DNA of 64,000 nt from Sulfurospirillum sp. GTDB lineage: Bacteria > Campylobacterota > Campylobacteria > Campylobacterales > Sulfurospirillaceae. This document shows, in pieces, positions 23,793 through 30,534 of this stretch. The DNA lies in the NCBI GenBank assembly GCA_016744795.1, contig JADGDR010000008.1, positions 44,969 through 108,968 on the forward strand, written 5' to 3'. The position numbers and the translations under genes are program-made. The notes beneath the pieces are model-generated. The model saw only the letters and a list, made by a program, of their open reading frames with translations, did no database searches and was not told the DNA's origin. Position 1 is the stretch's first letter. Every line of letters starts with the position of its first letter.

Positions 23793-24550
23793 TAGAGTTT
23801 GAACTATATTATTACGCTATTTTTTTGGCAGCTGGATTTTTAGCAGGTTTTGTAGATAGTATAGCTGGAGGTGGAGGAATCATCACTGTTCCTGTCCTTT
23901 TAGCATCAGGGATGCCTCCTCATATCGCACTTGCAACTAATAAACTTCAAAGCTCATTTGGTAGTTTTACCGCTTCTTTTAATTATATACGTAAAGGTTT
24001 AGTTAGTCTAAAAGAAGTTTATATAGGAGTGATTTTCACTTTTATTGGAGCGGGTTTAGGTGCTTATTCTATTCTTCTGATGGATGCAGAGATTCTTAGT
24101 AAAATTATTCCTGTGATGATGGTAATTATATTCTTCTATACATTGTTTACTCCAAAACTTGGTTCAAAAGATAGGCATCATGTACTAAAACCAAATCTTT
24201 TTTATTTTATGCTTGGTATAACTCTTGGATTTTATGATGGCTTTTTTGGACCAGGAACTGGAGCATTTTGGACTATTGCCATTGTAACGCTTCTTGGATT
24301 AAACTTGAAAAGTGCAACTGCACAAACAAAGATAATGAACTTCACAAGTAATATAGTTTCATTGGGAGTATTTATCATAGGTGGGCAGGTTTTATGGCTT
24401 GTAGGTATTCTAATGGGCGTAGGACAGATACTTGGAGCATATCTTGGTTCTAATTTGGTCATCAAAAAAGATGTAAAGTTTATACGAGTCTTTTTTCTTA
24501 TTATTGTTGCTATAACAATTGTAAAACTTATGTATGATAGTTACATGTAA
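23789..24550 (+). CDS. TSUP-family (TauE/SafE) membrane permease
   Basis: A 253-aa membrane protein with seven to eight helices. The hallmarks are GFLAGFVDSIAGGGGIITVPVLLASGMPPHIALATNKLQSSFGSFTASFNYIRKG and the internal repeat GFYDGFFGPGTGAFWTIA. The family moves sulfite, sulfonates or other organic anions; the substrate here is unknown. The final codons and stop (SYM, TAA) are part of a TTACATGTAA palindrome, immediately followed by a terminator. Confidence 0.87.
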   Translation: MIEFELYYYAIFLAAGFLAGFVDSIAGGGGIITVPVLLASGMPPHIALATNKLQSSFGSFTASFNYIRKGLVSLKEVYIGVIFTFIGAGLGAYSILLMDAEILSKIIPVMMVIIFFYTLFTPKLGSKDRHHVLKPNLFYFMLGITLGFYDGFFGPGTGAFWTIAIVTLLGLNLKSATAQTKIMNFTSNIVSLGVFIIGGQVLWLVGILMGVGQILGAYLGSNLVIKKDVKFIRVFFLIIVAITIVKLMYDSYM

Positions 24551-24580
24551 AGAGTTATGCTTTTATGAAGCATAACTCTT
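24550..24580. terminator. Bidirectional terminator between the TSUP and HD-GYP genes
   Basis: AAGAGTTATGCTT / AAGCATAACTCTT form a perfect 13-bp stem with a 5-nt loop between convergent genes. It starts within the TTACATGTAA palindrome at the end of the TSUP gene. Confidence 0.85.
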
Positions 24581-24584
24581 GCGT

Positions 24585-27500
24585 CTAAGATAAATAATCT
24601 TCGATATTTATATCATCAATTTGTTCTTTAAATAAAAATCTTTTAGCATATTTCATATATACACCAGATTTTAAAAACAGATCAAATATATCAGGATCTA
24701 TATGTTTGTCTGCTACCATAAATTTCATAATTTTTAATGATTCTGAAAGTGTTTTTGCTTTTTTATATGGTCTATCTGAGGCTGTTAAAGCTTCAAAAAT
24801 ATCGGAAATAGCCATAATTCTTGAAGGTATTGACATATCTTCTTTACTTAATTTTTTAGGGTAACCAGTTCCTATTAGAGTTTCGTGATGTCCTCCTGCA
24901 TATTCTGGGATTCTTTTTAATCTTTCAGGTAGAGGAAGTTTGTTTAACATTTTAATTGTAACCATTATATGTTCGTTGATTTTAAATCTTTCTTCTTCCG
25001 TTAGTGTTCCTTTTTTTATTGAAAGATTATAGATTTCACCTAAATTATATAAATCTTTAGGAATATTTACTTTAAAGCCATATTTTTCATACTCTTTTGT
25101 TCTGTCTACTTCTCTCTTAATTATATGTTCTTTTTTGTCACTTAGAAGATTTTCTTCAAAAGGAACTTTATCAATATTCGTATATCTTTTTTCCTCTGAT
25201 ATTGATAAACCTAGGCTATTATCGAAAAATCTTACCCAAGGTCTTTTTGCTATTTCTTCGACTCTTAACATATCTTCATCGCTCATAAACTCTCCACCAA
25301 CGTTGCATTTTGCAATAAATTCAAAATCATCTTTTAACTTATTTTGTTCTTGATTTAACCAAGTATTTGTTTTTTCTCTGTCTTCATTGTTTTGTATTTT
25401 TTCATAAGCTTGAATTTGTAGGTCCCTATAAATAACCTCGAATCTAGTTCTAATTTCATGTATTCTATTATATATTGTTTCAAGTTTGACCGCTTTATCT
25501 ACAACATATTCAGGAGTTGTAACTTTTCCACAGTCATGTAACCATGAAGCTATTGTTAACTCTCTTTTTTCATCTTTTGTTTTTAAGTCAAAATCTTTAA
25601 AAGGCTCATTTTTTGATTCAATTGCTTTTTCTGTTAACATTAAAGTCAATATAGGAACTCTATGGCAGTGGCTTCCTGTATAGATTGATTTTTCATCAAT
25701 GGACTCAGCCATTAAATGAATAAAAGAGTTTAAAAGGTTTTCATGCTCTTTTTCATGATTTTTAATTATGCTCGCTAAATCAAAAAAAGATAAAGATAAA
25801 TCATTAAGCTCTTTAATCCTTGTTTGAATTATGTTTACTTTGTTATATTCCCTATTTTTCATTTTTTCATTTTCTTTTTCAAGAGCCAAAATAGGTTTAA
25901 CAATCATTGATGTTAGGTACCATATAGCTGGTAATGTTATTAAAAATATAATAATACTCATGATTGATGAATCTAATATTTTTTTCATATAAGGAGCAAG
26001 AATATCTGATTCTTTTGTTAAAATAGCAAAATAGTGGTTATGTGAAACATTCTTTAGTTTTGAGGTAAAAAGAAAATATTTATTATTGTTTATTGTTATT
26101 TTAGTTATTTTATCTGAATTTTTCCTTGCAATATCTAATATTTTTTTGCTTGGAATTGTATTTGAGTTGTTAATAAAAAAATCAATATGTTTATCAGAAA
26201 ACCACTTTTGATATAAAAAATCTTTTTCCTCTTTTGTTATATTCGCACAAACTCTATTAAAAATTTCTATCAATATTTTATCTTTACTCATGAATTTTAA
26301 TCCAGGAAAAAGAGTTAAATCAATTTCTCCTTCTGGTAATTCAACCATTTTTAAATCACTAATATGATGACTTTTTGTGATATTTTCAAAGGTTTTATCT
26401 ATTTCTATATATGCCGGAGATGTTCCTTCCTCTAGCATTTCAAAAGCACCTACAGGGTTTTTAGCATAAAGTATTTGTAGATTTGGATAATGTTTTCTTA
26501 TATAGTTTTCTGTATAGGCATAACCTTCTACATTTATGATGCTTTTTTTGTTTTCTTCCAGTTCTTTTAGAGTATTATATTTAGAGTTTTTTTTAAGAAC
26601 AAGCATGGGTTTTACTTTTAAATAAGGTTTATTTGAAATATAGGTATCTTCTGTTTTATAAGATCTTGATAAAATTGAATTGACAATATCAATTTTGTCA
26701 TTCTCAAATAAATTTAGAAGTTCTATCCATGTATACCCATTCATAAATCTTATTTTGATATCTGCTTTTTTTGCAATTAATTTAAACAAATCAACTGAAT
26801 AACCTTTTGGTATTCCACTTATGGTAAAATCAAATGGCATCCAAGAATGATCATTACTAACAATAATTGTACCTAAATTTTTTAAGTAGTTTTTTTCTTT
26901 TTTTGTTAATTTAAATTTTTTTTCCAGAAAAATTTTTTTATCTTTTGCATTTAAATTAGCAGTTAATTCTTTATCATCATTAAAAATAAATGCATTTACA
27001 TTAGATTTTAAACTATTGTCTTTTAATTTTTGGGTAATACTTCTAATAGTATAACTTAAGCCTAAAGAAGCATCTAAGTTTTTAACTTTTTTTGCATAAG
27101 TAATCCCTTCTTGAAGTAAATGTGCAAAGGAGTAAGGTGGAGTTTTAATAACGGAATTTTTTATTTGACTCAAAGTATACCAACTTCTAATTTTTAAATC
27201 ATAACTGGTTTGAGTTTGATCTCTATCTATAATATTTAAATTTTTATCAAAAATTTTTTTATGAAGGGTATTCTTATTTCTTCTGGCATTGTAGTAGAGT
27301 CTATTTTCTTGCCAAATTGCATTTTTATTTATGTTGTTTAAATTTCCACTTTGTTTTACAGATAAATTTATTAATACGTATAAGTTTCCTTTTTTGTCGC
27401 CAAAATGAATAGCGTATAGATTCTTGTTATTTTCTAGAATTTGAACAAAAGTATCTAAATATTTGTATTTTGAATTAATTTCTGGCATTTTTGCTATGTC

Positions 27501-27737
27501 TTGTATATCAGATAAAGGAATCAATATATTTGAATTTGTTTTATCAAAAGATGCTATTTTTTCACTGATATTTTTTGAATACTGAACAAAATTATTTTGA
27601 GTCTCATTTATGGCTATATTTTTTAAATCAAAATACTTTTGAACTAGTATAAGTGTTGAAAAAACAAAAACAACAATAAAAAACAAAAATAAAATTGTAG
27701 GACGAATTTTTACTAAAAAGTTATTAAAATTTAACAT
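24585..27737 (-). CDS. HD-GYP sensor protein: Cache with nested SBP_bac_3 domain, TM and HD-GYP
   Basis: About 1050 aa. The start at 27737 (MLNFNNFL) has GGAAGG upstream and is preferred to the track start five codons earlier. Order in track numbering: TM1 at 17-38; Cache-like periplasmic part at about 40-260; SBP_bac_3-type domain at about 283-525 (TIIVSNDHSWMPFDF, KGYSVDLFKLIAKKADI); a membrane-proximal Cache-like strand (YFLFTSKLKNVSHNHYFAILTKESDI); TM2 at 595-615; a HAMP-like coil; then HD-GYP. The catalytic H739-D740 (SWLHDCGK), HHE 955-957 and GTGYP 961-965 are intact, so c-di-GMP hydrolysis is likely. About 170 residues are inserted between HD and GYP. Confidence 0.87.
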   Translation of the reverse strand: MLNFNNFLVKIRPTILFLFFIVVFVFSTLILVQKYFDLKNIAINETQNNFVQYSKNISEKIASFDKTNSNILIPLSDIQDIAKMPEINSKYKYLDTFVQILENNKNLYAIHFGDKKGNLYVLINLSVKQSGNLNNINKNAIWQENRLYYNARRNKNTLHKKIFDKNLNIIDRDQTQTSYDLKIRSWYTLSQIKNSVIKTPPYSFAHLLQEGITYAKKVKNLDASLGLSYTIRSITQKLKDNSLKSNVNAFIFNDDKELTANLNAKDKKIFLEKKFKLTKKEKNYLKNLGTIIVSNDHSWMPFDFTISGIPKGYSVDLFKLIAKKADIKIRFMNGYTWIELLNLFENDKIDIVNSILSRSYKTEDTYISNKPYLKVKPMLVLKKNSKYNTLKELEENKKSIINVEGYAYTENYIRKHYPNLQILYAKNPVGAFEMLEEGTSPAYIEIDKTFENITKSHHISDLKMVELPEGEIDLTLFPGLKFMSKDKILIEIFNRVCANITKEEKDFLYQKWFSDKHIDFFINNSNTIPSKKILDIARKNSDKITKITINNNKYFLFTSKLKNVSHNHYFAILTKESDILAPYMKKILDSSIMSIIIFLITLPAIWYLTSMIVKPILALEKENEKMKNREYNKVNIIQTRIKELNDLSLSFFDLASIIKNHEKEHENLLNSFIHLMAESIDEKSIYTGSHCHRVPILTLMLTEKAIESKNEPFKDFDLKTKDEKRELTIASWLHDCGKVTTPEYVVDKAVKLETIYNRIHEIRTRFEVIYRDLQIQAYEKIQNNEDREKTNTWLNQEQNKLKDDFEFIAKCNVGGEFMSDEDMLRVEEIAKRPWVRFFDNSLGLSISEEKRYTNIDKVPFEENLLSDKKEHIIKREVDRTKEYEKYGFKVNIPKDLYNLGEIYNLSIKKGTLTEEERFKINEHIMVTIKMLNKLPLPERLKRIPEYAGGHHETLIGTGYPKKLSKEDMSIPSRIMAISDIFEALTASDRPYKKAKTLSESLKIMKFMVADKHIDPDIFDLFLKSGVYMKYAKRFLFKEQIDDINIEDYLS

Positions 27738-27851
27738 TATTAATCCTTCCATTTCAGTATATAAAATGTATTTAAAGTTTAGCCTTATAAATATAAGCTA
27801 AATTCATTCTATGAGATTAGATTTTAAAGCTTTTTTTGTTATCCTAAAGAA

Positions 27852-27857
27852 TATAAT
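27852..27857 (+). promoter_or_regulatory. Likely -10 box of ligA
   Basis: TATAAT lies 20 bp before the ligA ATG, so the leader is very short. AGGAAG serves as the ribosome site. No clear -35 is seen. Confidence 0.5.
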
Positions 27858-27874
27858 GTATTAGGAAGAAATAA

Positions 27875-30534
<2,660 letters not shown>

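Follow-up and report, generated by a model that had tools for sequence, protein, structure and literature searches.

A solute-binding domain nested within the dCache sensor of a predicted HD-GYP phosphodiesterase from Sulfurospirillum

Genes and domains at the locus

The window analysed here, a stretch of 64,000 nucleotides from Sulfurospirillum sp. (contig JADGDR010000008.1 of assembly GCA_016744795.1), carries on its minus strand a gene for a predicted membrane protein, P0001, in which a solute-binding protein (SBP) domain of the SBP_bac_3 family is nested in a dCache sensor domain and joined across the membrane to an HD-GYP domain. The open reading frame extends from 24585 to 27752 and encodes 1055 amino acids when counted from the first ATG. 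An initial annotation of this DNA had given the gene as 24585-27737, and these coordinates hold, position 27737 being an in-frame Met at codon 6; residue numbers throughout refer to the protein of 1050 amino acids counted from that Met.

Over the whole gene the order of elements is a first transmembrane helix (TM1), a dCache domain split by SBP_bac_3, a second transmembrane helix (TM2), a linker and the HD-GYP domain, all encoded on the minus strand. Hydropathy places TM1 at about residues 13-32 (27642-27701) and TM2 at about residues 586-612 (25902-25982). The first part of dCache (residues 33-262, 26952-27641) comprises the membrane-distal module and the first hairpin of the membrane-proximal module (FIFNDDKELTAN), as assigned by alignment with SBP-free dCache-HD-GYP relatives whose profile matches solved dCache domains. 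The inserted SBP_bac_3 domain, a Venus flytrap (VFT), follows together with its leading helix at residues 274-516 (26190-26918), as delimited by profile, alignment and model and close to the span of about 283-525 first proposed; the corresponding Pfam match covers residues 291-514 (57.5 bits against a cut-off of 26.4, E 1.5e-15). Behind it lies the remainder of the membrane-proximal Cache module, a helix and the last three strands (residues 533-584, 25986-26141), which is colinear with SBP-free relatives. On the far side of TM2, a juxtamembrane linker conserved in all relatives (residues 613-665, 25743-25901) leads to the HD-GYP domain, recognised by Pfam as HD_5 at residues 862-1017 (152.3 bits against a cut-off of 27.2, E 1.4e-44).

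The SBP_bac_3 domain lies inside the membrane-proximal half of dCache

Comparison with relatives confirms that the SBP_bac_3 domain of P0001 is nested inside the membrane-proximal half of dCache. Our homologue search, which covered 399 genomes of the order, found full-length nested homologues in G324 and G256, both from a single other genus, and the three full-length nested proteins align throughout at 42% identity. Many further relatives, of about 800 amino acids, are free of the SBP. Roughly 20 of these resemble P0001 over residues 1-265, mostly at 22-35% identity, and the similarity resumes from about residue 530 to 1049 at 48-59% identity, with nothing between 265 and about 530. One of these SBP-free proteins is a paralogue (L036) encoded in the window's own genome.

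At the junction, the SBP-free proteins read FDxxGEIIAS, a short linker, KILDxxL, EYFVxxSxI and YLAILxP, and P0001 reads FIFNDDKELTAN, then the SBP, then KKILDIARKN, KYFLFTSKL and YFAILTKES. By this alignment, the SBP interrupts the membrane-proximal PAS-like module once its first hairpin is complete. The initial annotation had noticed a Cache-like strand behind the SBP and had suggested insertion within the Cache fold. Both observations stand: the segment in question (KYFLFTSKL...HYFAILTKES) aligns with the last two membrane-proximal Cache strands of SBP-free relatives, and these relatives are colinear with P0001 on both flanks and match solved dCache domains.

For the nested homologue L037, the dCache_1 profile is covered from position 71 to 204 ahead of the SBP at 42.1 bits, below the Pfam cut-off of 45. 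When the SBP was excised in silico, the match extended over positions 71-233 of 240 and rose to 50.1 bits, above the cut-off; with the SBP and the tail both removed, it stood at 44.4 bits. When the periplasmic regions of 20 SBP-free relatives were combined into a profile, it aligned across the insertion point with solved dCache domains (6pxy, PctA 5ltx, 3c8c and others), and 19 of the 20 match dCache_1 at E <= 0.001.

Several points weigh against nesting. P0001 itself has no significant Pfam match to a Cache profile, and its Cache region, being too divergent, still gives no dCache_1 match when the SBP is excised in silico, so the case for P0001 rests on its relatives. In an AlphaFold2 model of residues 30-625, built from an input alignment of SBP-only relatives, the predicted local distance difference test (pLDDT) score is mostly 75-95 over the SBP and about 52-80 over the three strands after it, and falls to 26-66 over the N-terminal Cache (residues 30-255). 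We attribute the poor modelling of the split Cache to the SBP-only input alignment. The structure prediction that had been proposed as a check thus succeeded for the SBP and failed for the Cache, and the model decides neither for nor against a nested sheet. The missing Cache match in P0001 and the poorly modelled Cache would also suit a sequential arrangement, in which a complete periplasmic domain is followed by the SBP and then by an unrelated juxtamembrane segment. We regard that arrangement as very improbable, given that on both flanks the SBP-free relatives, with the paralogue from the same genome, align colinearly with P0001, that excision of the SBP lifts the dCache_1 score of L037 and carries its match to profile position 233 of 240, and that the uninterrupted region of SBP-free relatives matches solved dCache domains.

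Other proteins combining Cache and SBP domains (L039, L041, L042, L043 and others) were considered as nested and rejected, as they are ordinary tandem SBP/NMT1 kinases and GGDEF receptors. No description of an SBP_bac_3 domain nested or inserted in a Cache or dCache domain was found in the open-access papers searched. The initial annotation had taken a single-chain SBP receptor controlling cyclic dimeric guanosine monophosphate (c-di-GMP) to be unusual; RmcA is already known as such a receptor for L-arginine (PMC8846402), and the unusual part is the nesting. What appears to be new here is SBP_bac_3 nested in dCache, each module and the pairing of SBP with c-di-GMP being known already.

Distribution of nested proteins

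The survey of this architecture that the initial annotation had envisaged returned six homologues with the identical insertion point, in marine bacteria of two phyla: three belong to one Campylobacterales genus and three are carried on Vibrio and Pseudoalteromonas plasmids. Within that genus, 3 of 135 genomes encode one (G324, G256 and G428). The gene in G428 (L133, on C22), which brings the nested proteins of Campylobacterales to four, has a break inside the SBP that leaves it in two frames, and is either a pseudogene or an assembly error. Nested proteins were absent from 43 other genomes of the window's family, from 104 genomes of f9 and from 248 further genomes drawn from the phylum.

The gammaproteobacterial occurrences were drawn from plasmid records, not chromosomes, and comprise genes from Vibrio mediterranei QT6D1 (WP_088879097.1), Pseudoalteromonas sp. 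THAF3 (WP_152441727.1) and Vibrio sp. THAF190c (WP_152471007.1). All three (L144, L145 and L146) are annotated merely as 'HD domain-containing phosphohydrolase', showing how automatic annotation overlooks the nesting. In V. mediterranei the nested gene has IS91-family transposase and recombinase genes on its flanks, which suggests that it is mobile.

A contig scan with the nested alignment returned nothing nested; the patterns used were of the SBP-linker type, so the matches were mostly SBP-only or weak HD-GYP proteins. Viral contigs searched by protein yielded no relative, and the motif WLHDCGKVTTPEYV found a single match among them, L143 (IMGVR_UViG_3300009563_000286). The end of this contig encodes the HD half of P0001's HD-GYP family beside phage-like sequence, and it is probably a chimeric assembly. 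Phage records held no nested homologue; one record of a gut 'Bacteriophage sp.' (MT838501.1, 6.3 kb) encodes at 337-1509 an HD-GYP protein of the family, with 47% identity over residues 643-1049, and is probably host DNA. Two SBP-free gammaproteobacterial relatives, from Rahnella (L147) and Vibrio fortis (L148), carry additional GAF-like sequence between TM2 and HD-GYP, so sensor modules vary in this family on either side of the membrane.

Origin of the insertion and local history of the gene

In trees built from the flanks alone, P0001 groups with SBP-free proteins of the f9 type, the nested proteins of f17 group with SBP-free proteins of f17, f6 and f4, and the gammaproteobacterial nested proteins fall outside all Campylobacterales members. 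A single nested clade is rejected by the flanks (approximately unbiased (AU) test, p 4e-6 and 6e-5), with three separate flank partitions in agreement, and a clade of P0001 with the gammaproteobacterial nested proteins has p 0.001. In the SBP tree, nested SBPs from Vibrio and f17 are joined at 99/92, and a tree constrained to keep all six nested SBPs in one group scores 5.8 log units better than the unconstrained tree (p-AU 0.62). An earlier, smaller test of the SBP grouping was neutral (p 0.35), and the branches of P0001 are long throughout the trees.

Because the flanks reject a nested-only clade while a single origin of the SBP is not rejected, we believe that the SBP was probably inserted once, long ago, in this HD-GYP family and was later lost about four times. 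It is also conceivable, though we judge it less likely, that SBPs were acquired at this Cache loop on two or more separate occasions, or were swapped between genes. Recurrent entry would dispense with the four or so losses and would account directly for flanks that side with different SBP-free proteins; it sits poorly with the better score of the tree uniting all six nested SBPs and with the firm union of the Vibrio and f17 SBPs.

The P0001 gene itself was probably a late arrival in this species, as suggested by its base composition and by its absence from the junction between a TSUP-type gene and ligA in genus-mates. Its GC content of 25.0% is the lowest among the 40 window genes of at least 250 amino acids (mean 31.3%, standard deviation 2.2), and all five genus-mates compared (5/5) have the TSUP-type gene and ligA as neighbours without the P0001 gene. 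Four of the five carry a small thioredoxin-like (CxYC) gene between these neighbours, and the fifth has a gap of 10 bases. This small gene is missing from the window at 24550-27878, and the P0001 gene probably replaced it. The gene stands outside any operon, since its transcription converges on that of the TSUP gene and diverges from that of ligA. At 24550-24580, between the P0001 stop and its TSUP neighbour, the sequence reads as a hairpin with a 13-base inverted repeat (AAGAGTTATGCTT-TTAT-GAAGCATAACTCTT), possibly a shared terminator of the two convergent genes.

Fold and binding pockets of the sensor

A Foldseek search with the modelled SBP gave as best Protein Data Bank match the periplasmic binding protein (PBP) domain of RmcA (7ejg, TM-score 0.89 by target), followed by amino-acid SBPs and VFT2 of BvgS. 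In amino-acid SBPs of the HisJ/GlnH type, an Arg holds the carboxylate of the ligand and an Asp holds the amino group. The Arg column contains Arg in 56 of 57 related SBP domains and K361 in P0001 (T362 in the phmmer alignment); it contains Thr and Phe in two Vibrio homologues and Arg in the f17 and Pseudoalteromonas homologues. At the lobe-2 Asp column P0001 has I446, with D447 adjacent. As aligned, P0001 would lack the Arg/Asp anchors of an amino-acid-binding SBP_bac_3 domain.

The Cache pocket was compared with that of PctA, where we take R126 and D146 to be further motif positions. P0001 keeps four of the six positions (Y179, R184, W186 and Y202, equivalent to Y121, R126, W128 and Y144). 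The D146 equivalent is F204 in P0001 and Phe or Tyr across the whole family, and the D173 equivalent is S228 in P0001 and Asp in 25 of 28 rows, so that the predicted pocket departs from the dCache_1AA amino-acid-sensor motif. D173, Y144, W128 and Y121 are the motif residues named for PctA (PMC11245519). The initial annotation had spoken of an 'amino-acid-like ligand', a suggestion undercut by K361 (or T362) at the Arg column and by S228 at the D173 position. With anchors altered in both pockets, an amino-acid ligand for P0001 is possible but weakly supported, and is not indicated.

The same alterations count against a sensing role for the flytrap, since the SBP may bind no solute. Having lost solute binding, it might act as a spacer, a dimer or a protein-docking module, leaving sensing to the Cache or to a partner protein. 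Such a loss would fit the replacement of an otherwise nearly constant Arg in P0001 and two Vibrio homologues, the very long SBP branch of P0001 (1.65-1.78) and the precedent of BvgS VFT2, which is closed without ligand (PMC8534201). The fold is complete, however, with the family-typical W299, P301, F302, G312, W337 and G405 retained, and the Arg persists in the homologues from f17 and Pseudoalteromonas; we think it less likely than not that binding has been lost.

The HD-GYP core and its insert

The HD half occupies residues 666-748 (25494-25742; H690, H734-D735 and K738) and the GYP half residues 895-1035 (24633-25055; H923, H950-H951, GYP at 958-960, D979, R989 and K992). The core had been described as intact, and this description is borne out as regards its metal ligands. 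Every HD and GYP motif residue is present, as are seven of the eight metal ligands of PmGH from Persephonella marina (E185, H189, H221, D222, H250, H276, H277 and D305), E185 being replaced by Y686. The ligands H690, H734, D735, H923, H950, H951 and D979 are invariant in 36 rows, as are K738, R989 and K992, the equivalents of PmGH K225, R314 and K317. All 36 family members have Ser in place of PmGH D183 (S684) and Glu in place of D308 (E982), and Ser at the D183 position recurs in the three HD-GYP proteins of ordinary type that the genome encodes. Tyr at the E185 position marks a Y/F subfamily that is already recognised and whose metal centre is expected to be different, and D183 is essential in PmGH, which needs K225 and D308 as well (PMC4159591); work on V. 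cholerae indicates that the requirements of PmGH may not be universal (PMC4212101). P0001, as a Y/F-subfamily member, is predicted to be binuclear.

Ser, Tyr and Glu at the D183, E185 and D308 positions count against catalysis, in that activity is not guaranteed. We nevertheless predict that P0001 is likely to have c-di-GMP phosphodiesterase activity, since the ligands are kept, Ser at D183 is shared with ordinary HD-GYP proteins and the PmGH requirements are perhaps not universal. An extensive c-di-GMP network is present in the genome, judging from its 39 GGDEF, 21 EAL and 5 HD_5 matches. There is precedent for a non-catalytic dCache and HD-GYP combination in DvhD of Desulfovibrio (PMC13090378), a dCache-PAS-HD-GYP protein that, like P0001, couples the two through the membrane. 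P0001 could by analogy be a c-di-GMP receptor signalling inside-out and not a phosphodiesterase, a role compatible with its Ser at D183 and Tyr at E185. We consider this improbable: the HD-GYP domain of DvhD is degenerate, without the HD motif and the double His that are intact here in all 36 relatives, and no gene for a periplasmic client adjoins that of P0001. DvhD also differs from P0001 in having no SBP.

Between the two halves lies the insert to which the initial annotation had assigned about 170 amino acids. It is present, at about 160 amino acids, and is not special to P0001. The span from D735 to H923 is 188 residues, versus 28 in the genome's three ordinary HD-GYP proteins, and its equivalent measures 181-191 in all 36 family members; an insert peculiar to P0001 was accordingly rejected. 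This near-constant, family-wide element (residues 749-894, 25056-25493) falls in loop 7/8 of PmGH, which forms one claw of the substrate cleft (PMC4159591), and sets the family apart from PmGH itself.

Proposed mechanism and known systems

We think it likely that P0001 is a single-chain inner-membrane receptor and enzyme in which the flytrap within dCache alters the Cache and TM2 and so changes the predicted hydrolysis of c-di-GMP, the insertion being ancient and the arrival of the gene late. In the PAS-like membrane-proximal module, the flytrap occupies the loop that comes after the first beta-hairpin, with both ends anchored in the Cache. Control, of whichever sign, would begin as it opens or closes upon a small solute or a partner. 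This movement would reshape the membrane-proximal Cache or a presumed dimer, and, as the last Cache strand leads directly into TM2, a shift of TM2 may alter the activity of the cytoplasmic HD-GYP domain. One structural point tells against such coupling: in SBP_bac_3 folds both chain ends are usually on one lobe, so closure of the flytrap need not pull on the Cache.

P0001 would do in a single chain what LuxP and LuxQ, or ArtI and STM1987, do in two. LuxP-LuxQ and HptA-HptS are systems in which a binding protein signals by way of a double-PDC (dCache) sensor (PMC8534201), and L-arginine sensing requires both ArtI and the dCACHE of STM1987 (PMC8846402). In all three, as in P0001, a binding protein and a dCache-type sensor cooperate, with the difference that their binding protein is a chain of its own and that of P0001 is covalently inside the Cache. 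RmcA of Pseudomonas aeruginosa (SBP_bac_3 - PAS - GGDEF - EAL) resembles P0001 as a one-chain c-di-GMP enzyme with a periplasmic SBP_bac_3 domain, the closest solved fold to that of P0001; its output is EAL and its SBP is, as far as described, not nested in a Cache. PctA-type dCache_1 sensors share the double PAS-like periplasmic domain and the Y121, R126, W128 and Y144 equivalents, and differ in D146 (Phe or Tyr in our family), in D173 (Ser in P0001) and in a membrane-proximal module that is not split by an SBP. The nearest sequence kin of the SBP unit, including its leading LTxEExxYL helix, are BvgS/EvgS-type tandem-flytrap kinases and the SBP-kinase and SBP-GGDEF relatives of Campylobacterales, in which SBPs stand end to end, with no surrounding Cache and with other outputs.

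Implications

More tentatively, and with somewhat less than even confidence, we suggest that P0001 is a two-input one-chain receptor in which the nested flytrap couples solute binding to the membrane-proximal module and gates HD-GYP, and that the insertion site is a hot spot of receptor evolution at which a whole SBP came and went, or arrived repeatedly, in Campylobacterota and marine Gammaproteobacteria. A flytrap held covalently in a Cache would provide a defined path from flytrap to TM2 that can be tested with one purified protein, and the SBP-free relatives, one of them within the same genome, are natural controls. The comparison also shows that entire binding domains can enter or leave the Cache fold without destroying the Cache.

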